59,833 bases of DNA, from assembly GCA_029243145.1 (NCBI GenBank), contig JAQWSQ010000025.1:1-59833 (forward strand), in the 5' to 3' direction. The position numbers were made by a program, and so were the translations under genes. Under the pieces are notes generated by a model. The model saw nothing but the letters and a program-made list of their open reading frames with translations, had not been told where the DNA came from and did no database searches. The stretch comes from Planctomycetaceae bacterium (GTDB lineage: Bacteria; Planctomycetota; Planctomycetia; Planctomycetales; Planctomycetaceae). Shown here piece by piece: positions 41,042-59,769 of the stretch. How positions within the stretch are numbered: position 1 is the stretch's first letter; each line of letters begins with the position of its first letter.

Positions 41042-41334
41042 CTCCTCCCCTTCTTCGGGGAGTTCTGTTATCGAATCGAGGAATTCAGAAACTGTTTTGA
41101 GCTAATACCCACGAGCGCCTCTGGTTCGTCAAGGAATGATCGCGCCCCTTTGTGTGAAAGGGCTGACCAAATGATGAATGCACAATTACGGTCTCTTCAG
41201 CATTTATAACCAGATGGCCGGTCAAACCCAAGAATTTCCTGCCCTGAATCAAAAGAGGCGTGCAATTGGAGTCCGTGGTCGGTCTCTCTATAATCAATCA
41301 GACAAATAACTTCTCAACACTCATCGGACACATC

Positions 41335-43176
41335 ATGGGGTATCGCAATTTGCAGCAGTGTGTTGACGATCTCGAACGGCACGGCCACTTGATCCGTATC
41401 TCCGACGAAGTTGATCCATATCTCGAAGCTGCCGAGATCCAACGTCGCGTCTATCAGGCACAAGGGCCAGCGATCCTCTTCGAGAACGTTAAAGGGACAC
41501 AGTTCCCGATGGTCACGAACTTGTTTGGAACGTTCGAACGGACAGAATTTCTGTTTCGCGATGCGCTATCGGCAGTGCAGAAACTGGTCGCACTCAAAAT
41601 CGATCCGATGCAATACGCGAAGACGCCGTGGAAATACTTCTCAGCGGTCCGTCCGGCACTCTCGATGTTGCCTCGCTCGGTCCGTTCGGGAGCAGCAACC
41701 GAGTTCACGACGACACTCTCAGCATTACCGCAACACGTCAGTTGGCCCGATGATGGTGGCCCCTTCATCACGTTGCCCGAAGTTTACACCGAAGATCCTG
41801 CCAAGCCGGGTTTGATGTCGTCGAACCTCGGCATGTACCGCGTGCAGATTGCCGGTAATGGCTATGAGACTGATAAAGAGGTCGGACTGCATTATCAGAT
41901 CCATCGCAGCATCGGCGTGCATCACAAAGCCGCCATTGATCGCGGTGAACCACTGAAGGTCAACATCTTCATCGGGGGAGCACCATCGATGACTCTTTCT
42001 GCAGTGATGCCTTTGCCGGAAGGAATGAGCGAACTCACTTTTGCCGGCGCGTTGCAAAAACGCGCCATTCGCATGATCAAGCAAAACAATGCCCCGGCCA
42101 TTTATGCCGAGGCCGACTTCTGCATCACCGGTACGATTGATCCCACCGGACTCAAGCCCGAAGGACCGTTCGGAGACCATCTCGGTTATTACAGCCTACA
42201 ACATCCTTTCCCTGTGGTGAAAGTGGATCAGGTCTATCATCGCAAAGATGCCATCTGGCCCATGACGGCTGTCGGCAGGCCACCGCAAGAAGACACATCG
42301 TTTGGTCACATCATTCACGAGATCACTGGACCGGCTATTCCCACTGTCATCAACGGCGTCAAAGCGGTCAACGCGGTTGATGCGGCGGGAGTTCATCCCC
42401 TACTCCTGGCGATGGGCAGTGAGCGCTATGTCCCCTACGACAAACCGGCCCGGCCTCAAGAATTGTTGACACAAGCCAACGCCATTCTCGGACAGGGACA
42501 ATTGTCCCTCGCAAAATACCTGTTGATCCTCAACGAATCCGATCATCCCGGCCTCGATATCGAACAGATCGACCAGTTCTTCATGCGTTTATTGGAACGC
42601 ATTGATTGGCAGCATGATCTCCATTTTCAAACTCGCACCACCATGGACACGCTCGATTACAGTGGACACGGCTTCAATGCCGGCTCCAAACTTGTCTTGG
42701 CGGCCGTCGGCTCGAAACAACGGGACTTGCCGACGGAAATCCCTAGCGGCTTTTCTTTACCGGAGGGCTTCGATGATGTCCGCATCTGCCTGCCGGGCGT
42801 GTTGGCCATCCGCGGACCGAAATTCACCGAATACGGCGACGGTCAAGAAGCGGGGCTGACTCGTTTTTGCGAATCACTAGCCGTCGACCATCCCATCAAT
42901 CAATTCCCTTTGATCATTCTCGTCGATGATGCCGAGTTCACGTCGGCGTCGCTCAACAACTTTTTGTGGGTGACGTTCACGCGCTCGAACCCGGCTGCCG
43001 ACATTTCGGGAATCGGCGCGTTCAACCATCAGAAACATTTCGGCTGTCGTGGATCATTGGTGATCGATGCCCGGTTGAAACCGCATCACGCCCCACCATT
43101 GATTGAAGATTCCGAAGTGACCCGCCGTGTGGATGAGTTGGCGGCACCCAGCAAACCATTGCATGGGATTATTTAG
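41335..43176 (+). CDS. UbiD-family decarboxylase (menaquinone-type)
   Basis: A 613-residue prenylated-FMN-dependent decarboxylase. The ATG at 41335 (MGYRNLQQCVDDLERHG) is the family start. EADFCITGTIDPTG, KPEGPFGDHLGYYS and LVDDAEFTSASLNN belong to the UbiD signature, with the Glu/Arg/Glu triad region. The length (about 600) fits the menaquinone-type subfamily (MqnL) more than E. coli UbiD (about 490). With the UbiA-like gene at 44104 it may act in the late steps of the futalosine pathway to menaquinone, where the aromatic carboxyl is removed; a UbiX partner is not in the window. Other aromatic or alpha,beta-unsaturated acid substrates are possible. Confidence 0.88.
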   Translation: MGYRNLQQCVDDLERHGHLIRISDEVDPYLEAAEIQRRVYQAQGPAILFENVKGTQFPMVTNLFGTFERTEFLFRDALSAVQKLVALKIDPMQYAKTPWKYFSAVRPALSMLPRSVRSGAATEFTTTLSALPQHVSWPDDGGPFITLPEVYTEDPAKPGLMSSNLGMYRVQIAGNGYETDKEVGLHYQIHRSIGVHHKAAIDRGEPLKVNIFIGGAPSMTLSAVMPLPEGMSELTFAGALQKRAIRMIKQNNAPAIYAEADFCITGTIDPTGLKPEGPFGDHLGYYSLQHPFPVVKVDQVYHRKDAIWPMTAVGRPPQEDTSFGHIIHEITGPAIPTVINGVKAVNAVDAAGVHPLLLAMGSERYVPYDKPARPQELLTQANAILGQGQLSLAKYLLILNESDHPGLDIEQIDQFFMRLLERIDWQHDLHFQTRTTMDTLDYSGHGFNAGSKLVLAAVGSKQRDLPTEIPSGFSLPEGFDDVRICLPGVLAIRGPKFTEYGDGQEAGLTRFCESLAVDHPINQFPLIILVDDAEFTSASLNNFLWVTFTRSNPAADISGIGAFNHQKHFGCRGSLVIDARLKPHHAPPLIEDSEVTRRVDELAAPSKPLHGII

Positions 43177-44103: not shown

Positions 44104-44967
44104 TCACCCCACCAATACATCAAGAAAGCCGACACCGAGCAAGCCGACAGAAATCACGGCGTTGATGCGGAAGAACGCGAGATTCACGCGGCTCAGATCA
44201 TCGGCACGAACGACTGAATGCTCATAAATCAGCAAGAGAGAAACGAGGCTGATGCCACCCAGAAAGACCCAGCCTAACTCGCCGAAATGCCATAAGGCAA
44301 ATAGACAACCGATCGTGATCAGGTGGCTAAAGAACGCGATGCGCAACGCAGTTAGATTTCCAAATCGAGCGGGGATTGACTTTAATCCCACTTGTCGGTC
44401 GTAATCACTATCCTGACAGGCATAGATGATGTCGAAGCCACCCACCCAGAAGAAGATGACTGCGGCTAACAGGAAAGGCGTCAGCGAGAGTGAATCGGTG
44501 ATTGCCAGCCACGCGGCGATAGGTGACATCATTAACGCGGCGGATAACCAATAGTGACACAGCGACGTGAATCGTTTGGCATAAGAATACCCCAACAAAA
44601 ATAGCAGCACCGGAACCGACAAGGTGATGGGCCATGTTTTCGGAAGAAAAATCAACGTCGACGCGATGAAGCCAATGCACGAGAGCAAGGTGAACAGAGT
44701 CACCGTTTTGACTGACATTAAACCCGCAGGGAGATGACGGCCGGCCGTTCTTGGGTTGTCTGCATCGACTTTGCGATCCGCGAGTCGGTTAAACGCCATT
44801 GCTGCCGAGCGAGCGAAGATCATGCAAAGCAGGATTCCGACCAAATCTTGCCAACGAAAATCAGTGCTTCGCCAAGCAAGGACAGCAGAGAGCAACGCGA
44901 ACGGCAAAGCAAACAGCGTATGGCTGAAGCGAATGAGAGAGAGAAATTGTTGAAATTGTTGCCACAT
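44104..44967 (-). CDS. UbiA-family prenyltransferase
   Basis: A 287-residue integral membrane protein with eight to nine TM helices. The first Asp-rich site is NRLADRKVDADNPRT (Asn60, Asp64, Asp68), and the second is ACQDSDYDRQVGLKSIP; both bind Mg2+-prenyl diphosphate. It transfers a polyprenyl chain to an aromatic acceptor. The conserved GFDIIYACQD matches 4-hydroxybenzoate octaprenyltransferase-like proteins that serve as MqnP in the futalosine pathway. The UbiD-family gene on the other side of island B supports a menaquinone role. The ATG at 44967 is used. Confidence 0.88.
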   Translation of the reverse strand: MWQQFQQFLSLIRFSHTLFALPFALLSAVLAWRSTDFRWQDLVGILLCMIFARSAAMAFNRLADRKVDADNPRTAGRHLPAGLMSVKTVTLFTLLSCIGFIASTLIFLPKTWPITLSVPVLLFLLGYSYAKRFTSLCHYWLSAALMMSPIAAWLAITDSLSLTPFLLAAVIFFWVGGFDIIYACQDSDYDRQVGLKSIPARFGNLTALRIAFFSHLITIGCLFALWHFGELGWVFLGGISLVSLLLIYEHSVVRADDLSRVNLAFFRINAVISVGLLGVGFLDVLVG

Positions 44968-47280: not shown

Positions 47281-47495
47281 TCGAGGAAAACACCGAAAGA
47301 TCCGTGGATCTCTGAGGAATCCACGAAATCTGGATCACAAATCGACTTGCATCCTTACCCAGTCTCCTTTTACTATTTTAACAGACACATTTTTCACAGT
47401 TAGAATTGATGAAAAGTGTATATTGATGAGCGACGGCCTGTGGGCCGCCGATTCTGATTCCGAAGACCCTCCGCGCGAAAGTGCATCCTGCCTTC

Positions 47496-47951
47496 ATGTC
47501 GCCTGAACTTACCTTTGCCATGGGCCAATACGAGGCCCGAATCCCCACAGATCGACTCTATTCCGAGAACCATCTGTGGTTAAAACCAGAGGGAGACGGC
47601 TATCGTGTCGGTTTCACTGCGTATTCAGTGCGACTGCTGCAAGATGTCTATTTTCTCAGTTGGGAGATTGAATCCGGCACAACCGTCCGTAAAAAACAGG
47701 ATATTGGAGAGATTGAATCCTCAAAAGCCTTGTCGGATTTATTTGCTCCCTATGATGGAGACATTACAAGATTTAATTCGTTATTGATGGACGACCCGTC
47801 GTTGATCAACTCTGATGGATATGAAAAAGGGTGGCTGTACGAATTTCAGACCGAGGCAGAGCTACTCACTGCCGAACAATATGTAGAATTGCTGGATGGC
47901 GTTTGGGAAAAAACACAACGAGTGATCAAAGGACAGATCAACGAATCCTGA
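47496..47951 (+). CDS. GcvH-like lipoyl-carrier protein
   Basis: A 151-residue protein with a biotinyl/lipoyl fold. [20 protein letters not shown] is the H-protein N-terminal hairpin, and [18 protein letters not shown] carries the probable lipoyl-Lys (Lys77). E. coli GcvH has ESVKAASDIYAP at the same place. No gcvT, gcvP or glycine riboswitch is near. Instead a two-cluster ferredoxin follows after 40 bases and isoprenoid genes beyond. Stand-alone H-like proteins act in lipoate relay or as LbpA-type carriers in sulfur metabolism. The start is uncertain: ATG 47496 or 47520, or GTG 47481. A role with the ferredoxin is inference. Confidence 0.85.
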
Positions 47952-47991
47952 CTTCGAAAGCTGATACCAAAGAGTTTTCACGGAAATTATC

Positions 47992-49068
47992 ATGGCTGGC
48001 AAAAAACTGACCGTCGTTATCTCCCAGTCGCAGAGCAAAAACCCTGCGCACCGAGACCTCGAAGAGACGATTGCTGCCGATCTGATGATGTCGGGCGAGG
48101 TCGAAGTTTCTCTCGTCCCGCATCTCTACGATATGTCTCGCGATCATAGCGGCATGTTGTTTCTCAAGGGCATCCCCGGCGATATCGTATTTGCATCGTG
48201 GTTGTATCCCCGAGCCGCATTTTGGACTCTCGACCGAGACGGCATCCGAGGCCAAGAGGGCATCACCACTCTGCATGACGAAGAGGACGAAGAAGAACTG
48301 AGTGAAGAGAATCAGCAGCAGGCGAACGGGATTGGATCTGTCGAAGTTCCTCCCCGTAAAATTTACTGTCTCGACTTACGATCGTTTGGCGATGCCGAAC
48401 CGTATCTCGATGAAGTAAAACGCATTGTTTCAGAAGCCACGACTCAAACCGTCGACTTGATGTCGTTTATCCAAGGCAACCCAAAACAGGAACAACTCGA
48501 ACGCTATCTGAATCCGCTTCCCATTTTGAATGGGAACGGAAATGGAACACCCCCAGCAAACGGCGCGAACAACGGATCAATTCAAAACGGCGACGGGGCT
48601 ACAGCATCCAACGGCGAACCCGAAAAAGTTTCTCGCCGCTGGTATCCTGTGATCGACTACTCTCGCTGCACGAACTGCATGGAGTGCATCGATTTTTGCC
48701 TGTTTGGAGTGTACGGCGTCGATGGACTCGACAGAATTTTGGTCGATGAACAAGACAACTGCAAAAAGGGATGCCCGGCATGCAGTCGTGTTTGTCCTGA
48801 GAATGCCATCATTTTCCCGCAGCACAAATCGGCAGCGATTGCCGGCGCTCCTGGGGAGATTGGGAATCTCAAAATTGATCTTTCTCAATTGTTCGGTGCG
48901 CCGACGGCTCTCGAACAAGCGGCTTTGGAACGCGATACAGAATTGGTCGCCGATGGACGGGACGCGGTCGGAATGACGGTCGGTATTCCCAAACGTCAAA
49001 CGGAAGAGAACGCGGAACGAGACGATCTCGACGATATGTTAGACGATCTGGACAATCTTGGCCTCTAA
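47992..49068 (+). CDS. Two-[4Fe-4S] ferredoxin-domain protein with unusual N-terminal domain
   Basis: A 358-residue cytoplasmic protein. Residues 1-165 form an unrecognised alpha/beta domain ([29 protein letters not shown]). A low-complexity Asn/Gly linker follows at about 178-215. The ferredoxin domain has [11 protein letters not shown] (CxxCxxCxxxC) near 226-236 and [13 protein letters not shown] near 257-268, so two clusters. An acidic tail ([15 protein letters not shown]) closes the protein. It follows the GcvH-like gene closely and precedes the triterpene cyclase. It likely carries electrons for a step in this cluster. The N-terminal domain may bind a partner; it was not assigned. Confidence 0.82.
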
Positions 49069-49116
49069 CCTTTCCTCGCCTCTAAAAAAACTCGCAATTG
49101 TGGACTCTTGCCACTT

Positions 49117-51006
49117 ATGGAATTTCCTGGAATTGATCGCGACCGACTGCAATCCACCTGCGATCAGGCCACGCAGATTTTGCTCGATCAATATGATCAC
49201 AAAAGCGGCCACTGGTTCGGACGACTTTCTTCGTCGCCACTCTCCACGGCAACAGCCGTTGTGGCGATGCAAACCGTTCTGAAGAAATCGCAAGAAGCCA
49301 CTCCCACGCAGCCCTACGATACCTTGATGCTGAGAGAACTCATCGACGGCGGGCTGGCCTATCTCGAAAAACATCAGAATGTCGATGGCGGTTGGGGCGA
49401 TACGGATAAAAGTCTCAGCAACATTTCCACCACCATGTTGTGTCATGCGGCTTATTATGCTGCCAATCAAACCGATCAGTTTTCCGAATGTGTGACCTCT
49501 GCGAAAACGTACATCGACAAATCAGGCGGCGTTCCCGCACTCCTCAAACGATATGGGAAAGACAAAACCTTCTCGATTCCCATTCTCACTCATTGCGCAC
49601 TCTCGGGACAAGCAGATTGGTCAGACATCTCTTCTCTCCCATTCGAACTCGCCTGCCTCCCGGCGAACTTTTATAAAACGGTCAAGCTGCCTGTTGTCAG
49701 TTATGCGCTGCCGGCTTTAATCGCCATCGGGCAAGTGAAACATCATCACAAGCCAACTTGGTTCTTGCCTTGGCGATGGGTCCGCAATTTGTCCGTCAAA
49801 CCGACATTGCGAGTTCTGGAACGAATCCAACCGGAATCGGGCGGCTTTCTCGAAGCAACACCACTCACCAGTTTCGTCTCGATGAGTTTGGCGGGAATGG
49901 GATTGCTCGATCACCCAGTGTTACAAAAAGGGATCAATTTCCTCATCGATTCTGTCCGTGATGACGGAAGCTGGCCGATTGATACCAATCTTGCGACGTG
50001 GGTCACCACTCTTTCGGTGAACGCTCTTGAAGATTCACTCCCCCAAGAGCAGGTCGAACCGATTGCAGATTGGCTTCTCAACCAGCAATACAAGACCGTC
50101 CATCCTTATACCAATGCCGATCCCGGTGGTTGGGCATGGACCGACCTTTCAGGAGGTGTTCCCGATGCCGATGACACACCGGGAGCCATGTTGGCTCTCA
50201 CGAATTTGCGAGAGCGTTGTTCTGAAGAAACTCAATTTCGGATCGACACGGCGTTGACCAACGGTGTGAAGTGGTTGCTCGATCTCCAGAATAATGATGG
50301 TGGTTGGCCAACATTCTGCAAAGGTTGGGGGACGTTGCCCTTTGATCGAAGTTCCAATGACATCACGGCTCATGTCATCCGTGCTCTCGAATATTGGATC
50401 AATAACTCTCCCGACGCGGACGGGATTGAACATGAACTGAAATTCCGAGCCAGACTTTGTGAATCGGCGATTGAAAAGGGATTCCGACATCTGAAAAAAT
50501 CACAACGATCAAATGGATCGTGGTTGCCCTTATGGTTCGGGAACCAACGTGTCCCCGATGATGAGAACCCAACATACGGCACTGCGAAAGTCCTCGCCGC
50601 TTATCGGGATTGCGGAAGGCTCACCGATCAAGAAGCTCAACGAGGTCTCGATTGGCTGGAAGCCAATCAAAACGCGGACGGAGGTTGGGGTGGTGGATCG
50701 GAAACGGACTCTTCCGTCGAAGAAACCGCTTTGGCTTTGGAGATCCTGCTCAGTTGCGGTCGATGTGGCAGTCATCTGGGCTTGGGAATTAATTGGCTCA
50801 TGAATGCCGTTGAGTCGGGAGATCTCCGAAAACCGCAGCCAATCGGGTTCTATTTCGCCAAGTTATGGTATTACGATGACTTATATCCTGTGATTTTTAC
50901 GGTTTCGACCCTGCATTCAGCGTGTCTAAGTGACTACAATAGTTCGGTTCCACCTGCGGATGCGGAAATCGCTTCCGTCAAATACGTGGTTCAACGAAGA
51001 GAGTAA
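49117..51006 (+). CDS. Squalene-hopene cyclase-family triterpene cyclase
   Basis: A 629-residue protein with the alpha-alpha barrel repeats of the family. QW-type motifs are NVDGGWGDT, RDDGSWPIDT, NNDGGWPTF, RSNGSWLPLW and NADGGWGGG. The catalytic acid motif is DADD (Asp350, Asp352, Asp353) in VPDADDTPGAML, equivalent to DxDD of squalene-hopene cyclase, so protonation-initiated cyclisation is expected. WAWTDLSGG precedes it. It is slightly short relative to family members (630-720). Substrate could be squalene or another long prenyl chain. No squalene synthase gene is in the window. The ATG at 49117 is preferred over a TTG at 49108; no strong RBS. It is part of the 47.5-54.8 kb run. Confidence 0.87.
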   Translation: MEFPGIDRDRLQSTCDQATQILLDQYDHKSGHWFGRLSSSPLSTATAVVAMQTVLKKSQEATPTQPYDTLMLRELIDGGLAYLEKHQNVDGGWGDTDKSLSNISTTMLCHAAYYAANQTDQFSECVTSAKTYIDKSGGVPALLKRYGKDKTFSIPILTHCALSGQADWSDISSLPFELACLPANFYKTVKLPVVSYALPALIAIGQVKHHHKPTWFLPWRWVRNLSVKPTLRVLERIQPESGGFLEATPLTSFVSMSLAGMGLLDHPVLQKGINFLIDSVRDDGSWPIDTNLATWVTTLSVNALEDSLPQEQVEPIADWLLNQQYKTVHPYTNADPGGWAWTDLSGGVPDADDTPGAMLALTNLRERCSEETQFRIDTALTNGVKWLLDLQNNDGGWPTFCKGWGTLPFDRSSNDITAHVIRALEYWINNSPDADGIEHELKFRARLCESAIEKGFRHLKKSQRSNGSWLPLWFGNQRVPDDENPTYGTAKVLAAYRDCGRLTDQEAQRGLDWLEANQNADGGWGGGSETDSSVEETALALEILLSCGRCGSHLGLGINWLMNAVESGDLRKPQPIGFYFAKLWYYDDLYPVIFTVSTLHSACLSDYNSSVPPADAEIASVKYVVQRRE

Positions 51007-51072
51007 TTAACTTGTTATTGCCATAGTCAGCATCAATGCCGACTTGGCGTCCATCCATAAAGAGAGGTCGAC

Positions 51073-52938
51073 GTGTCGATCGCCCCCCTGAATTCCTCCG
51101 AGACAGATTCGCAGCACTCCACCGATGTTGAGAGTGGTGATATCGAACGTCCCGTGAAACGGAAGAAAAAACGCCGTAGTACCAGTCATCTCAAAGCGGT
51201 GCCGGAAACTCTTGCGCAACGTGAGCAGATTCGAGATGCCTCCGAAAAATACGCGGAGCCGCTGGACAAAACCCGCCCTTTCAATAAGGGGGAACTCGAA
51301 CAGCACAGCCGAGAACTGCTCAAGCAGATGGATTTGCCTGAGAAATTTCTCGGCTTTGTGATGGTGTTGATCGGTAACTTCTTCTGGAAGCGGCAGTTTC
51401 TGGCAATCCCGTTTGAAAAACGAATGCTGCTGTTGCCGCATTGTCTGAAACACGCGGAAGGTTGCCCTGCTGAATATGACCAGTTTGGTCTCGATTGCGA
51501 ATCTTGTGGTGCCTGTTCGATTGCCGATTACAAAGTTCGCGCGGAACAACTCGGTTACAAAGTTCTCGTCGCCGAAGGATCGCCCGTCGTTCTGAAAATC
51601 ATTGTTTCAGGATATGTGGAAGGAATTTTGGGGGTCGCTTGCTTGAATGTGTTGGAAAAAGCGATTGATAAAGTTCTGATCGCCGGCGTCCCATCTTATG
51701 CCGTTCCTCTGCATTCTGGTGACTGCAAAAACACCTCGCTCGACGAATCGTGGATCTGGGATGTCATCGAGAAATACGAACCGCTCCCCGAGCAACAAAC
51801 CTCCAGCTATCTGCCCATCATGCGTGCCGCAAATGAAATGTTCGAGGAGCGTCTTGAAGAACTAATGCCAGCCGTTCGTAGTGGAAAAGATCAGGCTCCC
51901 GCAACTCCCATCGCGTTTACCGAAGAAGTCGCGTATGACTGGTTGGCCAAAGGTGGAAAACGCTTCCGGCCTTTTATCACATTAGCCGCTTACGACGCTC
52001 TAACCGGAGCGACTGCCGCCAATCACGCACGCAACGAAACCGGTGATCGCACGGCCGCTTATCAGTTTGACGCGGATGTTTGCCGGATTGCCATGGCGAT
52101 AGAAGCATTCCACAAAGCCTCGTTGGTTCATGATGATATTCAGGATAGTGATTTGTATCGCTATGGTCGCGAAACATTACATCGCAAACACGGGACTGGG
52201 CAAGCCATTAACATCGGCGATTATCTGATTGGAATTGGTTACAAACTGATCGCTTCAGCCGTCGGAAGTTTGGGTGCCGAAGTCACTGCCGATGTCCTGC
52301 AACAGATGTCAGCCGCGCATATCAAATTGTGTGAAGGGCAGGGAGCGGAGATGTCGTGGAGTGAGTCCCGCGACTGGAATCTCAAACCGATCGATGCGCT
52401 GCAAATTTATGCTTTAAAAACATCTCCCGCTTTTGAAGCAGCGTTGTACTCCGGCATTCGCATGGCGGGTGATGTGAAACCGTACAAAGAGATGATTTCT
52501 TCATTTTGTCGTCATATCGGAGTCGGTTTTCAGATTCTCAACGATTTGAAAGACTGGCAGGGAGACGAGAACAACAAACTGGTCGCCGGTCAGGATGCTT
52601 TGTCATTCCGTCCAACCGTGCTACTTGCCATTGCTATGCAGGAAGCCAACGACGCGCAAAAAGCTCAGTTGAAAGAGTTGTTTGAATCAGAACGACCTGC
52701 CATTGATCGTTTGCAGGAACTCAAAAAACTGTACACCGAACTCGGCGCCTTCGAAACGGCGGAATCTCTTGTCGATAAATCGCAGGCACGTGCTGAAGCA
52801 CTGGCAGATGAAGTTGACAACGAAGACCTGCGGCAACTGCTGTACTTCTTGGTCGATTCCGTTCTCGCTCACGAAGAACAGACTCCCGCCGATCCTCCGA
52901 CCGTGGAACTCCAATTGACGGCACCGCCTCGTCCGTAA
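51073..52938 (+). CDS. Fusion of DUF116 and trans-isoprenyl (polyprenyl) diphosphate synthase
   Basis: A 621-residue protein starting with GTG (AGAGG upstream). Residues 1-60 are a charged, disordered segment with KRKKKRRS. Residues about 70-240 are DUF116: [20 protein letters not shown], then [13 protein letters not shown], with cysteines that could bind an Fe-S cluster. Residues about 270-600 are a trans-prenyl diphosphate synthase: [12 protein letters not shown], the first Asp-rich motif LVHDDIQD (Asp354, Asp355, Asp358) and the second NDLKD (Asp491, Asp494). The prenyl synthase condenses IPP with allylic diphosphates. It lies 66 bases after the triterpene cyclase. A fusion with a Cys-rich DUF116 is unusual; the N-terminal part might sense or deliver electrons. 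Confidence 0.88.
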
Positions 52939-52969
52939 TTGATTGAGAGCCTGATAGTTGTGAGCGAAT

Positions 52970-53308
52970 TTGAACCAATTCAGTGGAACTGACTTTGAAA
53001 AAATTGAGCTGCGTGTGGGGACGATCATTGCCGTTGATGACTTTCCCGAAGCTCACAAACCGGCCTGGATATTGACGATTGATTTCGGCACCGACATTGG
53101 CGAGCGAAAATCGTCTGCTCAAATTACCGATCACTACGACAAGGTCTCTCTCATTGGTCGGCAGATCATCGCTGTCGTCAATTTTCCTCCCAAGCAAATC
53201 GGGCCGCTACAGTCCGAATGTTTGGTGACGGGTTTTTATCGGGAAGACGGCAGTGTGATTCTCGCAGTCCCCGATCAGAATGTCCCGAATGGTGCCAAGC
53301 TCGGTTGA
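52970..53308 (+). CDS. CsaA-like tRNA-binding OB-fold protein
   Basis: A 112-residue EMAPII/CsaA-type OB-fold protein: FEKIELRVGTIIAVDDFPEA, then KPAWILTIDFGTDIGERKSS, and QIITVVNFPPKQIG-like VVNFPPKQIGPLQSECLVTGF. Cytoplasmic CsaA binds tRNA or acts as a chaperone for secretion. The frame starts with TTG at 52970, since a stop lies two codons before it and no ATG exists; this gives the usual CsaA length. It is 31 bases after the fusion gene. Confidence 0.88.
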   Translation: MNQFSGTDFEKIELRVGTIIAVDDFPEAHKPAWILTIDFGTDIGERKSSAQITDHYDKVSLIGRQIIAVVNFPPKQIGPLQSECLVTGFYREDGSVILAVPDQNVPNGAKLG

Positions 53309-53417
53309 ATGACTCCTCGACTGGTTGTGATCATCTCTCTCGATTACGATAAAAGAAACTCACCACAAGTCTCTCAGACAACAGGAAAGATGGCCTGATC
53401 ATTCAGGCTGGTTCAAC

Positions 53418-54827
53418 ATGATGAACATTCCCGACGAATTGAAAACCACACTCGAAGCTCACAACCAAACTCATTTGATCCAGTGGTGGTACGAACTCCA
53501 TGATTCGCAGCGAGTTTCGCTGCTTGATCAGTTGGAATCGATTGATTGGAATGAAATCAATCACCTGCTCCATGACGTCGAAGCCGATGATGCGTCTCAA
53601 CAAATTGAGCGTGCCAAAACAGCGACCCCTCCCGAAACACTCGTCGGCCTGAATGATCAAATTTGGTCGGAGGAAAATCGAGCCGACCTTCGAAAGCGTG
53701 GCGAAACGCTGCTCAGAAACGGAAAAGTGGGTGCGATTGTCGTCGCGGGTGGACAGGGAAGTCGGCTGGGATTCGAACACGCCAAAGGACTTTTTCCCAT
53801 CGGGCCGATTTCTAATGCCACTTTGTTCGATTTTCTGTGCGGGCAAATTGCCGCATTGACGAAACGCTATCAGGTCGATATTCCCTATTACATCATGACC
53901 AGCGATGCGACCCACGATGAGGTCACTGAGGCCTTTCGAGGGCATGATTGGTTTGGCTTGAGTCCGAATCAGGTGATGTTCTTTAAACAGGGACACATGC
54001 CGGCCGTTGATGCGGAGAGTGGAAAGTTGCTGCTAGCAGCGAAAGACTCACTCGCACTCAGCCCGGACGGTCATGGCGGTATGGTGGCTGCGCTGGACAA
54101 ACAAGGCGTGCTTCGTGATATAGAAGCCCGTGGCCTGGAAGTGGTCTATTACCATCAAGTTGACAACCCGTGTGTCAAAATGTGCGATCCCGAATTTCTC
54201 GGCTTACATCGTCAGATGGATTCTGAAATGTCCACAAAAGTTGTGCGCAAGGTGACGCCCGAAGAAAAAATGGGACTACTCGTCGATATCGACGGTAAGA
54301 CTCAAATCATTGAATATTCTGACTTCCCGGAAGATCTGGCGGCAGAAACGACAGCGGATGGCCGTCTGAAGTTCTGGGCCGGTAACACCGCATGCCATGC
54401 GTTCTCCTTTCAGTTCTTAAAGTCATTAGCCGCTTCGGCCACCGCGCTCTCTTTCCATAAAGCCTCGAAGAAAGTGTCATACATCGACGAAACGGGAATG
54501 TCACAATCTCCCGAGTCTCCCAATGCCTTCAAGTTTGAGAAATTTATTTTCGACGCACTACCGTCGGCAAAAGTTGCGCTGGTTGTAGAAACCTCCCGAG
54601 AGCGAGAATTCAATCCCGTCAAAAATGCGGAGGGAAGTGATTCTCCGGCTACCTCTCAAGCAGCACTCGAGAGAATCTGGCGGTCATGGTTGATCGCAGC
54701 GGGGATCGAAGTGGGTGAAGACGTGAGGGTTGAAATACAACCCAGTTTTGCTCTGGATGAAGCAGACCTCATCGCTCGCAAAGCAGAAATTGGTCCCCCT
54801 CATGCTGGGAAACTGCTGTTAAAATAA
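53418..54827 (+). CDS. UDP-sugar (UDP-N-acetylhexosamine) pyrophosphorylase family protein
   Basis: A 469-residue cytoplasmic nucleotidyltransferase of the UDPGP family. AIVVAGGQGSRLGFEHAKGL carries the nucleotide-binding LxxGxGTRLG-like loop and the catalytic Lys. HGGMVAALDKQGVLRD is the uridine contact region, and YHQVDNPCVKMCDPEFLG and NTACHAFSFQFLK are later signatures of UAP1-type enzymes. It converts UTP plus GlcNAc-1-P (or another hexose-1-P) to UDP-sugar. Bacteria normally use GlmU; UAP-like proteins in planctomycetes may act in envelope glycan supply. Last gene of the isoprenoid run, 109 bases after CsaA. Confidence 0.85.
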   Translation: MMNIPDELKTTLEAHNQTHLIQWWYELHDSQRVSLLDQLESIDWNEINHLLHDVEADDASQQIERAKTATPPETLVGLNDQIWSEENRADLRKRGETLLRNGKVGAIVVAGGQGSRLGFEHAKGLFPIGPISNATLFDFLCGQIAALTKRYQVDIPYYIMTSDATHDEVTEAFRGHDWFGLSPNQVMFFKQGHMPAVDAESGKLLLAAKDSLALSPDGHGGMVAALDKQGVLRDIEARGLEVVYYHQVDNPCVKMCDPEFLGLHRQMDSEMSTKVVRKVTPEEKMGLLVDIDGKTQIIEYSDFPEDLAAETTADGRLKFWAGNTACHAFSFQFLKSLAASATALSFHKASKKVSYIDETGMSQSPESPNAFKFEKFIFDALPSAKVALVVETSREREFNPVKNAEGSDSPATSQAALERIWRSWLIAAGIEVGEDVRVEIQPSFALDEADLIARKAEIGPPHAGKLLLK

Positions 54828-55056: not shown

Positions 55057-56472
55057 TTATCCGTAGACTCCCAAGGCCACAATCAGAACAGCCAGAACGC
55101 AGAGGCGCCAAGAGATCCGCCTTGATGGTGAACCGTGACCGACACTCACATCACACAGCGTTTGCAGCATCAAGAGTGCAAGGTAGAAGAGTACGATTTG
55201 GCTACTAACAATAATCACTCCCATCAGCGAATACCCGGCAGCCGACTCCACCCCCGCTCCGGCAATTTCAAACGCACCCGCGATCAGTCCCAGACGCGCT
55301 TCGAATCCCATCAGTCCGGGAACTCCCACCCAACCGAACATCGAGACCAAAATTACTAATGCAGGGAGTGGGTGAGTCCACAGGAATCCCGACAAGTCTT
55401 CTTTTTGCAGGCACGGTTTTCCTAATCGAAGTAGCTCATGAAGTACTCCCATCAGCACAATGTAGGAGAACATGCTGCTAACGAATTCGATCTGAAAAAG
55501 CTCAAGTCCCGATGGAAGCCATAAGCCTAACTCCACAGAGTGAGAGATCAGAAACAGCTCCTGGCCAATCGCCAACCACATCAACGCGGCCGACGCGAGA
55601 AACCAACCACGCAAGCGGAAACTCATGTTATCGACCCAACCTGACTTGAGAGATTCGCGAATCAATGTCGGAACCGCAAATGTTGCTAACAGCATTTGCC
55701 CGCTGGACTCCATTCCGGGAATGCTGGGGAGCGCAATGGCTGGTAGCAATACGCAAGCAGAAACCAGTCCCGTTAATCGCGGAATCCCGTTCAATGACTT
55801 TTCGTCCGAGAACGGCCATTGAAACGGAAAGAAGCCCATTCTCCATGCGGAACCGAATATGAGACACAAGACCCCTGCGCTCAAAGCCATTCCCGAATTT
55901 GAAGGCGATTCGTCATAAACAGCCGCTTCACTTTGATCCGTGTCCAACTCAGATAACGGTCTCCAAGTGTCGAATTGACCCGTTTGCATTTCAGAGGAGA
56001 TCAACAACACCCCCGCGGCAATCATTCCGAAGGTAACAATCGAGCGTAAAATTGCCGAACGACGCTGGTCTGCCGGAAGAGTCAACCAGGTCGTGACGGA
56101 AATTGCTTCTCCAAACAGAAAAAGGAATCTCAAATCTGTCGAGAAACACAGACCGCAAAGAAAAGTGGACGAAAGCAACAAGCCCGTCGGATGAAGAGTC
56201 AAAGTACCATCGTCTTGTTTGACGATGAGAATTGTCAGCAGGAGGTGAAACGCCAAAATCCAGGGAACTAAAGGAAGCGCGAAGGAGCCAGTGGTCTCAG
56301 AGAGAAGTTGATCGGCGTGTAACCACCATGTCCCCAGCGCAAACGTCAAAGCGGTTTGTGTGAGGGATCGAGCGATTTCCGACAGTCGTGATTTTCGAAC
56401 GAATCCCCAGCAGGCAATCCCGGCGAAGAGTGGAACCAGCATGATTAACAAAACAGGGAGAGAGAAAATCAT
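55057..56472 (-). CDS. Divergent NuoN-like membrane protein (complex I antiporter-like)
   Basis: A 471-residue protein with about 13 TM helices. The start at 56472 overlaps the TGA of the preceding gene (ATGA); a much longer upstream frame is unlikely. By eye it matches the proton-conducting subunit fold: LFLFGEAISVTTWLTL corresponds to the TM5 region of NuoN and keeps a Glu. AWRMGFFPFQWPF corresponds to the TM7-loop FKLGxxPFHxW segment, but with Arg in place of the key Lys and Gln in place of His. Third in an L-M-N order. Function is not proven; it may be a modified complex I or ion-translocating module. Confidence 0.62.
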   Translation of the reverse strand: MIFSLPVLLIMLVPLFAGIACWGFVRKSRLSEIARSLTQTALTFALGTWWLHADQLLSETTGSFALPLVPWILAFHLLLTILIVKQDDGTLTLHPTGLLLSSTFLCGLCFSTDLRFLFLFGEAISVTTWLTLPADQRRSAILRSIVTFGMIAAGVLLISSEMQTGQFDTWRPLSELDTDQSEAAVYDESPSNSGMALSAGVLCLIFGSAWRMGFFPFQWPFSDEKSLNGIPRLTGLVSACVLLPAIALPSIPGMESSGQMLLATFAVPTLIRESLKSGWVDNMSFRLRGWFLASAALMWLAIGQELFLISHSVELGLWLPSGLELFQIEFVSSMFSYIVLMGVLHELLRLGKPCLQKEDLSGFLWTHPLPALVILVSMFGWVGVPGLMGFEARLGLIAGAFEIAGAGVESAAGYSLMGVIIVSSQIVLFYLALLMLQTLCDVSVGHGSPSRRISWRLCVLAVLIVALGVYG

Positions 56473-58103
56473 GGTTGCTTCTCCCCTAATGAAAACCCAC
56501 CTGCGGAAACCGGGTATTCGAGCTTTTGCAGATCCCAACGAATGTGAGTCCAGATCACTTGTGGCAGCAACAAGATTAACACCGCAGCAATCAGAACCAC
56601 GCTTGTCTTCAGAAAGCCATTTTGAGGTTCGAGTGTCGTTGAGTGTTCGCCGATTTCCCAAACCGGCAGTTCACCACTCCTTACGGGTACACGAGGTGAA
56701 TTTTGTGCCAGCAGTCGATGAGAGGAAGTAGAGTTTCTGTCGTGATCATCATGGGCATTGTGACCATTGCGCTTCAAAATGATCGCGATGCCCACAATCA
56801 ACGCCGCTCCCACCTCGCGCGAACCCGGCCCCGTGGATTGCCATGTCCCCACAAGTCCCAAGGTCATACCCGAAATCAGCAAGACAGAAGTCGTCCACTG
56901 GCAAAGCCAAAGGGGCGAGAAGCGAGAACTCCTCATATTTTGTGGAACAGAGGCTTTCAAGCCAATCGCCATCAACAAAAGCATTGCGGCTGCCAACGAG
57001 GTTCTGTTGGAACCGCCGAGGGTCAGAACCAACATCGTCGAAAGAAAGAGAAAGCCCTGAGAGTCATCCGGTTTTTCTGATCGAATTCGCGATGTGATTG
57101 CCAACCAGAGGAGACCGACACACCAGGCATAAGTGAGGATTGAAAACATCCGATAGGCAACAAACGGAAACAACTGGCACTCTCTTAAAATCACTGCCGT
57201 CCCGAGTACCGGTCCGTAACACCAAAAGATCAAGCGAGTTACGGGGGCCGTTTCGCTCCACATTTCCCGACTGTCTCTCGTGAATGGAAACGTTCCAAAA
57301 CGCATCACACAGCCGACAATCATGACGTTCAACGCCGGTGAAACAGAACGCATCAAGCGGTCGTATCCCGTCAAATCTTCAAAACGTGCGAGGTCGATAG
57401 CTGCCAGAATTCGAGGAATGTCAAAGAGTTCCGCAGGGTCATTCCCGAGAATCGTGTATCGCATCAATGGTGTCAATGTGCTGAGGATCCCAGCCACAAT
57501 CAAAAAATCACTTAGCAAGAGTTGTCTCATTCGTCGGCTGAGATGTCGACGATGTACGGGGGAGACAAAAGTTGCCAACAGAAAATGAACGGAAAGAGGT
57601 ATCAAAAACAGCGTTACCATTTGCACACGGCGATCGATCGTGAGCAAGAAACAATACATCAACAATTGAAACAGCAACAATCCCATCGCACGACTGAGTG
57701 AGATTGGAGGCGAGACAGGTCGAGTCGCTAGTGTTTGCTGGTCACTCAATAAATATTTTTCCAACCCGATGAGAAATGGGAATGCCGCCGTACAGACTAT
57801 AAGAAGTAGCGAGCAACCATCGACACCAAATCGGTAACCTGAAGTTTCGCTCTGCTGAATGACGAACACATTGATCGATTGAAAACTCTCCGCAGCATCT
57901 AATCGTGTCCGCTGTGGGCCATGTGCAAAATTTGCGATCATCAACAACGCACACAACATCGACAACCCACCGTTGAGCAGTAACGTACGTTGAATAAACC
58001 GCTCACCCCACCATCGTGACATTCCCAGACTGAACAAACCACAAAGAGGGACACAGATTAAGAGCATCGGCATCTGATTGAGAATTGACGTCAGTCCGCT
58101 CAT
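56469..58103 (-). CDS. Divergent NuoM-like membrane protein (complex I antiporter-like)
   Basis: A 544-residue polytopic protein. YRFGVDGCSLLLIVCTAAFP matches the FGVDGLS segment conserved in NuoM, which marks the family. RFGTFPFTRDSREMW sits where NuoM has KxPxxPxHxWLPDAH, but the Lys and His are missing. VTLFLIPLSVHFLL sits where NuoM has FWELMLIP, with the Glu replaced. The C-terminus has a long extra-helical loop with His/Asp (NGHNAHDDHDRN). It is coupled to the NuoN-like gene by a four-base overlap and starts seven bases after the NuoL-like gene. Transport competence is doubtful. Confidence 0.62.
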   Translation of the reverse strand: MSGLTSILNQMPMLLICVPLCGLFSLGMSRWWGERFIQRTLLLNGGLSMLCALLMIANFAHGPQRTRLDAAESFQSINVFVIQQSETSGYRFGVDGCSLLLIVCTAAFPFLIGLEKYLLSDQQTLATRPVSPPISLSRAMGLLLFQLLMYCFLLTIDRRVQMVTLFLIPLSVHFLLATFVSPVHRRHLSRRMRQLLLSDFLIVAGILSTLTPLMRYTILGNDPAELFDIPRILAAIDLARFEDLTGYDRLMRSVSPALNVMIVGCVMRFGTFPFTRDSREMWSETAPVTRLIFWCYGPVLGTAVILRECQLFPFVAYRMFSILTYAWCVGLLWLAITSRIRSEKPDDSQGFLFLSTMLVLTLGGSNRTSLAAAMLLLMAIGLKASVPQNMRSSRFSPLWLCQWTTSVLLISGMTLGLVGTWQSTGPGSREVGAALIVGIAIILKRNGHNAHDDHDRNSTSSHRLLAQNSPRVPVRSGELPVWEIGEHSTTLEPQNGFLKTSVVLIAAVLILLLPQVIWTHIRWDLQKLEYPVSAGGFSLGEKQP

Positions 58104-58110
58104 TACTGGA

Positions 58111-59769
58111 TTACCCTTTCATCCAGAGAAATAGACTGGCGAGTAGCAGGAAACTAATTCCGCCTAAGGTAATTTCCCAGACAAATGGCGCGGGGGACTG
58201 CACAGTTTTTTCTGTGTGAATGAATCGTCGCTCGACGCGACTTCTCCACAGATCGATGAGGCTAGCACACGCAGTCACAACTCCTCTCGGCAGACTTGCT
58301 ATGCCTTTCCAAATGGTAAGGCCGTGGAAATGCGATTCTGCCAAAAGTTGAAAACTTCCCAAACGCTGACGCGAGACGTCTTTCGAACTCGAACGACGTG
58401 CGAGAATACCGGCAATGCCGACTCCCACAACGATACCAACAATTGTTTCCCAGCCCGGCACGATCAGCCACGGTTCACCTTGTTTCACAAGCCAATAGCG
58501 GGTTGTCGCAATCACGAAAACAATCGGGATGATCAATAATCCAGACGCTTTCATCTGTCCCGTGGGATGAATGTCTGCGGGTAACTTCTTCCAGTCAGCC
58601 AATATTTGAAGGAAGAATGGAACCATCAAACCGGCAGAGATGGCTCCAGGGAAAAGCCTTGTCATATTTTCGTTGTTTCCCAAGAGCCCCGAAGACTGGA
58701 CGGCAATGGCCCAGCCAGACATTCCTACCATGATCCACAACCCTGAGAATAAGAGGGCCGCGCGCTGAAAATGAGTACGCTCGTCATCACTATTCCACAG
58801 TCGCCACATGATGACCACCAGCAGATATTGTTCGAGCCCGAGATGATTAAACACCCGATCTTCGGACAAAAACATGCCAAATAATCCCAGCATTAAAAAA
58901 GCCGTCAACAATGCCCGGCGAATTGTTTTTTTCTTAACAAGTCCCCAACTGCAAACCATCGAGACAACAACGGTCAACAGAATCAAAGTTAAGTGAATCG
59001 AGGTGACGTTTGTGATCACAAACAACGGAATCAGTTTGACGAAAACGGCAGCAGCAAAAATCAGGCTCAATGGTTCGAGATCATTTTCGGGTTCACAGTC
59101 GATACGCAAGACCGAGATGGGGTACACCGCAGTCAGCAAGATCAGCGAAAGTGATCCCAGCATTGCCGCAAGAAGCAGATCGGCCTGCTGCGTGGATGTG
59201 AAGTTTTCCCAGTTTTGAAGCGTCTCGGGGATTTCGTGAAACGAGCCAATGCCAAAATCGAAAGAGAATATTCCGACAACGACGAGCAAAAACAAGATTG
59301 CCGTCCAATGACAACCGCGTAAAAGTGCTAACCCTTCCTGAAATCGACTTTTTGACACGAGCAAAGATTGTTGAAGACAGGAACAACCAATGAGTGTGAT
59401 CACCCACAGCCAGACGTCATCACACAATAGAAAGATTATAAGCACTGCGAGAAACCAAAATCTCTCTAAGGTTCGTTGATCTCGCTGACTCTCCAACATC
59501 CACCACCAAATCATCCAAAGCAGTGGTAGTTGGAGAAGAGAGACTCTGAAATGACAACGCACTTGATGAAAGGAATCGAGTGTAAATATTGTCGGACCGT
59601 TCCAGGTCACAGCTTCTCTGAATACCGCCACAGAGAGTAACGTCAGGGTGGCGGTGATTGCGAGAAAACTGAACCTGAAGAATCTCTCATTGTCGGTCAA
59701 AATCGCGACCGACTGTGCAACACAGCTTAATATTAGAAGAAGAATGAGCCAGCCGGTAATTGCATCCAT
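58111..59769 (-). CDS. Divergent NuoL-like membrane protein (complex I antiporter-like)
   Basis: A 552-residue polytopic protein, first visible gene of the trio. The stretch ITLIGCSCLQQSLLVSKS aligns with the FVGWELVGLCSYLLIGFW of NuoL. The TM7 region LGSLSLILLTAVYP and later LSLIFAAAVFVKLIPLFVI align with the KSAxxPLHxWL and HAATMV segments, with most key residues lost. The C-terminal ESHFHGLTIWKGIASLPRG, near DLWRSRVERRFI, resembles the lateral-helix and final-TM region of NuoL. It is shorter than NuoL (about 620). The gene starts 64 bases from the window end, so its upstream neighbour is not visible. Confidence 0.55.
   Translation of the reverse strand: MDAITGWLILLLILSCVAQSVAILTDNERFFRFSFLAITATLTLLSVAVFREAVTWNGPTIFTLDSFHQVRCHFRVSLLQLPLLWMIWWWMLESQRDQRTLERFWFLAVLIIFLLCDDVWLWVITLIGCSCLQQSLLVSKSRFQEGLALLRGCHWTAILFLLVVVGIFSFDFGIGSFHEIPETLQNWENFTSTQQADLLLAAMLGSLSLILLTAVYPISVLRIDCEPENDLEPLSLIFAAAVFVKLIPLFVITNVTSIHLTLILLTVVVSMVCSWGLVKKKTIRRALLTAFLMLGLFGMFLSEDRVFNHLGLEQYLLVVIMWRLWNSDDERTHFQRAALLFSGLWIMVGMSGWAIAVQSSGLLGNNENMTRLFPGAISAGLMVPFFLQILADWKKLPADIHPTGQMKASGLLIIPIVFVIATTRYWLVKQGEPWLIVPGWETIVGIVVGVGIAGILARRSSSKDVSRQRLGSFQLLAESHFHGLTIWKGIASLPRGVVTACASLIDLWRSRVERRFIHTEKTVQSPAPFVWEITLGGISFLLLASLFLWMKG

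Follow-up and report, generated by a model that had tools for sequence, protein, structure and literature searches.

Introduction

Planctomycetota are known for unusual membranes. Here we describe a gene cluster from a Planctomycetaceae bacterium, carried on contig JAQWSQ010000025.1, a stretch of 59,833 nucleotides that was analysed as a whole (the window) and that belongs, as contig C89, to a draft genome of 5.2 Mb. Four genes of the window encode a GcvH-like lipoyl carrier, a ferredoxin-like protein, a divergent squalene-hopene cyclase (SHC)-like protein and a DUF116 domain fused to a polyprenyl diphosphate synthase, and judging from their sequences and distribution these core four are probably part of one conserved Planctomycetota pathway making a cyclised polyprenyl compound. 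Seven or eight genes in all, shared by many Planctomycetota and largely kept or lost together, appear to build a ring-bearing prenyl compound by means of iron-sulfur, radical and lipoyl-carrier proteins; the window has four members of this set, and further members are found on other contigs of this genome.

The cyclase step has its nearest described counterpart in the hopanoid pathway (HpnC, HpnD, SHC and HpnH), where HpnH acts in hopanoid synthesis. As in that pathway, a class II cyclase with a DxDD motif is present and a radical S-adenosylmethionine (SAM) enzyme would act near a cyclic isoprenoid. Unlike in the hopanoid pathway, a fused prenyl synthase replaces squalene synthase, and a lipoyl carrier, a ferredoxin, a GTPase and DUF116 are added. 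PMC8303584 speaks of clusters of polyprenyl synthetases and terpene cyclases in planctomycetes at large and links them to carotenoids or hopanoids.

The lipoyl carrier resembles the glycine cleavage H-protein (GcvH), to which it aligns over the full H-protein length, with the lipoyl Lys77 and an accompanying Glu. In contrast to GcvH, it scores under the GcvH cut-offs and is paired with a ferredoxin, and a separate GcvH in the same genome passes both cut-offs. No isoprenoid pathway is known to use a lipoyl H-like protein. Lipoyl H-proteins are described in [FeFe]-hydrogenase maturation by HydE, HydF and HydG, where an aminomethyl-lipoyl H-protein acts with radical SAM enzymes and a GTPase for the H-cluster (PMC11736057). 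The likeness lies in the combination of radical SAM enzyme, GTPase and lipoyl H-protein; the cluster described here differs in that a cyclase and a prenyl synthase are added and the GTPase is of the CobW type. No hydrogenase linked to the cluster was seen, in an analysis that made no search aimed at hydrogenases.

The same DUF116-polyprenyl synthetase fusion is found in Psta_0175 of Pirellula staleyi, for which an electron-transfer role was proposed (PMC5898192); the section of that paper on Psta_0175 mentions no cyclase, radical SAM, GcvH-like, CobW or toroid partner. As far as that section goes, only the fusion and the electron-transfer proposal are already in print, and no description of the full gene set was found in openly licensed literature.

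Gene content of the cluster

Window open reading frames (ORFs) were assigned to families using Pfam and NCBIfam models. A first-pass annotation, made from the sequence alone, had described six co-directional genes separated by 31-109 bases, and ORF coordinates and family models confirmed this: six ORFs, all on the + strand, with intergenic gaps of 40, 39, 66, 31 and 109 bases in order. The first four genes and their predicted domains and motifs are:

47496-47951, + strand, GcvH-like lipoyl carrier of 151 amino acids (PF01597 (GCV_H), 2.8e-25)
47724-47726, + strand, codon of the putative lipoyl Lys77, a motif within the GcvH-like ORF
47992-49068, + strand, ferredoxin-like protein (Fer4 domain matches, best 3e-7)
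49108-51006, + strand, SHC-like cyclase, a divergent class II terpene cyclase, TTG start (PF13243 (SQHop_cyclase_C) 2e-34, PF13249 9.3e-20)
50164-50175, + strand, DADD motif of the SHC-like cyclase, residues 353-356 (aligned to SHC D374-D377)
51073-52938, + strand, DUF116-polyprenyl diphosphate synthase fusion, GTG start (PF01976 1.4e-37, PF00348 (polyprenyl_synt) 3.3e-44)
51283-51777, + strand, DUF116 domain with conserved Cys C124, C131, C142, C145, C148, C190 and C218
51925-52725, + strand, polyprenyl synthase domain (PF00348)
52132-52152, + strand, first Asp-rich motif of the polyprenyl synthase domain, residues 354-360 (within the PF00348 region)

The GcvH-like gene has an alternative GTG start at 47481, and its product fell below the GcvH cut-offs (90.5 vs 115.85 bits for TIGR00527 and 99 vs 117 bits for NF002270), whereas the second GcvH, on contig C130, was above both (136.3 and 147 bits). 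No gcvT or gcvP was seen when the window ORFs were read (one listing held those of at least 150 amino acids), a reading made with no hidden Markov model scan for these genes. The ferredoxin has a Rossmann-like N-terminal region (about residues 1-150) followed by CxxCxxCxxxC (C226-C236) and CxxxCxxCxxxC (C257-C268), which we read as two predicted [4Fe-4S] sites. The SHC-like protein was under the TIGR01507 equivalog cut-off (100 vs 431.1 bits), and the DUF116 domain scored 129 bits against a Pfam gathering score of 25 bits (PF01976).

Co-occurrence and gene order across Planctomycetota

Co-occurrence was assessed in a phylum sample of 294 Planctomycetota genomes with four markers: the fusion, the ferredoxin, the SHC-like gene and the conserved radical SAM partner described below. 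DUF116 was present in 99/294 genomes, and the surroundings of 64 DUF116 cases, picked by long or end-cut frames, were fetched. Prenyl synthase and DUF116 shared one frame in 64/64 of these, some cut by contig ends, giving 65 fusion genomes with the window. The ferredoxin was detected in 69 genomes (E 1e-10) and the SHC-like gene in 64 (E 1e-60). The radical SAM partner matched in 80 genomes at 1e-40, of which 59 were kept at E <= 8.2e-87 and 21 weaker ones (best 3.5e-56) were dropped. All four markers were found together in 55 of the 71 genomes having any of them, and 223/294 genomes had none. Judged by this co-occurrence the set behaves as a functional unit, a multi-gene pathway kept across many planctomycete families in the sample.

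Gene order was scored on 63 fusion loci, many of which end at contig edges. The SHC-like gene was on 50 of these loci, the ferredoxin on 48, a toroid protein on 41, the GcvH-like gene on 38, the radical SAM partner on 32, a CobW-type GTPase on 27 and a cysteine desulfurase of the NifS/IscS type on 15. Wherever the GcvH-like gene was present among loci L037-L100 the ferredoxin was on the same locus (39/39), within 3 kb in 38 cases; over all loci, some of which were fetched around the ferredoxin, the pairing held in 50/50. Adjacency among planctomycete homologues, whose absence the first-pass annotation had named as one ground for rejecting its proposal, was conserved: in a scan of named genomes, limited to the best 80 of 582 relatives, the SHC-like gene lay within 1 kb upstream of the fusion on the same strand in 71 loci, 20 of which also had the GcvH-like and ferredoxin genes. 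These 80 all had planctomycete titles (two labelled Candidatus Kuenenia) and included Gimesia, Fuerstiella, Thalassoglobus, Alienimonas, Rhodopirellula and Blastopirellula. At minimum the fusion and SHC-like gene are present in the isolates Thalassoglobus neptunius, Rhodopirellula baltica and Blastopirellula marina. Within the window's family, a genome assembled as one contig (G294) has the GcvH-like, ferredoxin, SHC-like, fusion and toroid genes together with CobW and radical SAM genes adjoining, and in 21 genomes of this family the toroid and DUF116 were each found in 19 and CobW in 17.

The joint function that had been suggested from gene content and order is strongly supported by co-occurrence in the phylum sample, kept adjacency and shared loss. 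As for membership, the core four genes stood, and the real set is larger, including the radical SAM enzyme, the CobW-type GTPase, the toroid and sometimes the cysteine desulfurase. The last two of the six genes were rejected as members, being on 2/144 cluster loci (1/64, L053; 1/80, L117). These followers, probably outside the module, are:

52970-53308, + strand, CsaA-like tRNA-binding protein (TIGR02222, 5.3e-45)
53418-54827, + strand, UDPGP-family uridylyltransferase (PF01704, 2e-43)

Additional partners of the cluster

In many families the cluster is contiguous with the CobW-type GTPase, the radical SAM enzyme and the toroid, a prenyltransferase-beta-like protein of about 300 amino acids. 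The window genome has the radical SAM partner on contig C49, the toroid on C98 and, in two fragments, the CobW-type GTPase, one fragment at the end of C135 and the other at the end of C167. The radical SAM partner differs from the lipoyl synthase that the first-pass annotation had suggested looking for. It carries CX3CX2C and three further Cys, all invariant in 59/59 sequences, and matched HpnH (TIGR03470) at 3.1e-13 with 49.4 bits, under the cut-off of 225.05. CobW proteins carried CxCC in 32/32. The toroid matched PF00432 at 1.3e-12, a likeness shared with RabGGTase beta (protein prenyltransferase beta), and RabGGTase beta itself at 2.2e-5 over the whole sequence with no single stretch significant. 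Columns conserved in at least 90% of 39 toroid sequences retained an Asp and held no Cys or His. Matched by hand to what we take to be the Zn ligand positions (Asp, Cys and His), only the Asp is kept, and unlike RabGGTase beta the toroid seems to be without the full Zn ligand set of protein prenyltransferases.

At the kept threshold the standard radical SAM was missing from 12 marker-bearing genomes. In 8/12 (loci L080, L084, L085, L091, L094, L095, L226 and L227) another radical SAM family takes its place, adjoining the ferredoxin, SHC-like or fusion gene, so a radical SAM enzyme appears to be required at this position in the set. Members of the second family matched PF04055 in 8/8, above the gathering score in five, and one also had a weak B12-binding match. 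One member tested against NCBIfam matched TIGR04013 (B12-binding/radical SAM) with 44 bits (cut-off 251), and the family is possibly of the cobalamin type. Of the remaining four, G036 has a truncated locus, G075 and G279 were outside the loci fetched, and G087 has lost its partners.

Alternatively, the set might assemble, in the style of the H-cluster, a metal-bearing or redox cofactor that is partly isoprenoid and whose tail the cyclase and prenyl synthase would make. In favour of this, the cluster combines a GTPase, a radical SAM enzyme, a lipoyl H-like protein and a ferredoxin with a seven-Cys domain and, at some loci, a cysteine desulfurase. This alternative also draws on the use of an H-protein in H-cluster assembly (PMC11736057) and on the constant company of the GcvH-like and ferredoxin genes on 39/39 loci. 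However, visual inspection of the partly annotated ORF families on at least six loci revealed no scaffold or client metalloenzyme, and HydE, HydG and HydF were absent from the best 25 models listed for the radical SAM partner and from the GTPase families listed. We regard such cofactor assembly as unlikely.

Relation to squalene and hopanoid genes

The absence of a squalene synthase near the cluster, as first annotated, held: both squalene-synthase-family matches in this genome fall on contig C73, outside the window, one with a stretch above the HpnC cut-off and the other nearest HpnD (241 vs 279 bits cut-off). A canonical SHC is encoded by a 732 amino acid ORF on C186 (700.4 bits vs the TIGR01507 cut-off of 431.1), to which the window SHC-like protein is remote (phmmer 3e-13). 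The cluster is therefore separate from the ordinary hopanoid-type gene set, whose HpnC/HpnD-type genes and canonical SHC lie on other contigs. Two further prenyl synthases are present in this genome; the one on C147 was above an FPP (farnesyl diphosphate) synthase subfamily cut-off and the one on C167 was under the cut-off of all 16 models matched.

Across the sample no squalene/phytoene synthase family gene (E 1e-8) was found in 14/65 fusion genomes and in 14/64 SHC-like genomes, two of which (G057 and G200) are rated 99% complete. Squalene would therefore not be generally required, and a squalene link is possible where both gene types exist. The label 'triterpenoid' of the first-pass annotation, taken in the squalene sense, was accordingly not upheld, since some fusion genomes show no squalene-synthase-family gene and a canonical SHC and HpnC/HpnD-type genes are present separately in the window genome.

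An accessory triterpenoid pathway of the squalene or hopanoid type, in which the SHC-like enzyme would use squalene made elsewhere and the other proteins would decorate the product, as HpnH does for hopanoids, does find some footing in these genomes. The window genome has the HpnC/HpnD-type genes and the canonical SHC, DxDD is kept in the SHC-like protein, the radical SAM partner weakly matches HpnH, and squalene-synthase-family and SHC-like genes are positively associated (50/64 genomes with the SHC-like gene vs 127/230 others; odds ratio 2.9, p 0.0009). Against it, the 14/64 genomes lack such a gene at the threshold used, the adjacent partner is a prenyl synthase and not a squalene synthase, and the SHC-like protein bears only a distant resemblance to the genome's canonical SHC (100 vs 700.4 bits). 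On balance we find a squalene-derived product improbable and favor a cyclised polyprenyl compound.

Conserved residues and structure models

Catalytic and cofactor motifs predicted from the alignments were intact: the prenyl synthase Asp motifs, the SHC-like proton-donor motif, the lipoyl Lys and the radical SAM Cys. The window GcvH-like protein aligned through the lipoyl site to PDB H-proteins, and 51/51 GcvH-like sequences retained both the lipoyl Lys and a Glu at position -3 relative to it. The three Asp of the SHC-like DxDD were kept in 52/52, as was a His that we placed by hand opposite SHC H451. The ferredoxin's eight Cys were invariant in 14 sequences. The seven Cys of DUF116 were invariant in 29 aligned sequences, with all seven kept in 74/76 fusions, and the eight Asp-rich motif columns of the polyprenyl synthase were intact in 74/76 fusions, among them the two whose DUF116 is decayed, with one truncated and one carrying an Asp-to-Glu change.

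The AlphaFold2 model of DUF116 had a mean predicted local distance difference test score (pLDDT) of 78 with alternating helices and strands, which we read as a Rossmann/flavodoxin-like fold; against the PDB it gave no match below E 0.001 and the top ones were weak. For the ferredoxin, overall model quality was low (pLDDT 58.6); the model had scores of 72-91 (residues 1-90) and 87-90 (residues 121-150) in the N-terminal region, and gave no PDB match below E 0.001. Stand-alone DUF116 proteins were considered as a guide to function and set aside, as their context is translation-linked with no link to lipids. At L107:8303-11723 a stand-alone DUF116 lies between methionyl-tRNA formyltransferase (fmt) and RsmB, with peptide deformylase adjoining fmt, and at L110 and L111 it directly follows fmt.

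Loss and decay of the gene set

The fusions of G087 and G306 (at L099:9409-11469 and L301:5491-7761) have lost the same four DUF116 Cys (C124, C142, C190 and C218) and kept the prenyl synthase motifs; we infer that these four Cys bind one cluster. The two fusions are 51% identical and are sisters in a FastTree phylogeny, read for branching and not for support values, so the Cys loss may be one event. Both genomes with a decayed DUF116 Cys domain lack those native partners that were tested. In G087 there was no ferredoxin (1e-10), radical SAM (1e-40) or SHC-like (1e-60) match. In G306 the family-type CobW, toroid and SHC-like genes, the three partners looked for genome-wide, were not found.

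Beside its own decayed copy, G306 has a complete distant eight-gene set on a 14 kb contig (L300:2254-12416) with GcvH-like, CobW, ferredoxin, radical SAM, fusion, toroid, SHC-like and desulfurase genes. G295 has a similar seven-gene set on a 13.9 kb contig (L302:6333-13853), with the SHC-like gene cut and without the desulfurase. Both genomes are drafts of the window's family, their distant fusions group with the versions of other families, and transfer or a binning error is possible. In G304, assembled as one contig, there was no DUF116, CobW or toroid match, and its SHC-family matches, five in all, include a strong SHC match, but none has the strength and length expected of the SHC-like gene. 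G304 keeps two squalene-synthase-family genes.

Proposed pathway

In the pathway that we propose, the prenyl synthase would make a polyprenyl diphosphate of C20 or longer, a length that we take from a rule concerning small residues before the first Asp motif. The SHC-like enzyme would cyclise this diphosphate by protonation. The radical SAM enzyme would then alter the resulting rings, drawing its electrons from the two-cluster ferredoxin. The GcvH-like protein could use its lipoyl arm as a thiol/redox, sulfur or C1 carrier coupled to the ferredoxin. Metal and sulfur for Fe-S centres, including one on DUF116, may come from the CobW-type GTPase and the cysteine desulfurase, and the toroid may bind the prenyl chain. 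More tentatively, the set could represent a class of isoprenoid pathway not described before. In it a lipoyl carrier and its partner ferredoxin would serve a radical SAM enzyme whose substrate is a cyclised polyprenyl, a Cys-cluster domain is fused to the prenyl synthase, and the product would be a planctomycete lipid or prenyl-tailed redox cofactor. Parts of the proposal are open to direct tests, namely the cyclase with its intact catalytic motif, the radical SAM step, for which two families can serve, and the Cys domain that has decayed in two genomes.

DUF116, the ferredoxin and the GcvH-like protein might instead form a redox control layer on general polyprenyl synthesis and not be steps towards a special compound. 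An electron-transfer role and a flavodoxin-like fold were proposed for DUF116 (PMC5898192), and the synthase motifs survive without an intact DUF116 in two genomes. Yet a dedicated cyclase, a toroid and radical SAM proteins that can stand in for one another look like parts that catalyse a reaction or bind a substrate, and the two other prenyl synthases of the window genome could cover general needs. We consider such a control layer very unlikely.

Several observations weigh against a dedicated pathway to a cyclised polyprenyl compound. The Fisher tests behind the co-occurrence (p <1e-44 for each marker pair) ignore shared ancestry, and 16/71 marker-bearing genomes are without at least one marker, many, not all, being fragmented drafts. 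Many genomes of the window's family have these genes dispersed, which means that a single transcript is not general, and the draft genome G303 retains the toroid although neither DUF116 nor CobW was matched there. The positive association of the SHC-like gene with squalene-synthase-family genes points the same way. The prenyl synthase outlasts DUF116 decay in G087 and G306, so its product may also serve something else.

Neighbouring features

Rfam and tRNA scans of the window gave no matches. A promoter scan returned a -10/-35-like site at 47378-47406; sites were fewer than in shuffles (2 vs 5.8) and the site was not used. Apart from the core genes and the second radical SAM family, ORF families on at least six loci, named by eye and partly annotated, included an ABC (ATP-binding cassette) transporter ATPase (19 loci), kinases and sulfatases, and several families of this listing were antisense frames. 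Downstream, three long membrane-protein ORFs (NuoN/M/L-like by eye only) gave no NCBIfam matches at 1e-20. Upstream of the cluster are a sulfatase gene and an MqnP/UbiA-like gene, and a UbiA gene also adjoins the cluster in the same genus (L053). The positions of these neighbours are:

55057-59769, - strand, three long membrane-protein ORFs
44104-44967, - strand, MqnP/UbiA-like prenyltransferase
41260-43176, + strand, menaquinone-type UbiD decarboxylase (TIGR03701, 358 bits, under the cut-off of 496)

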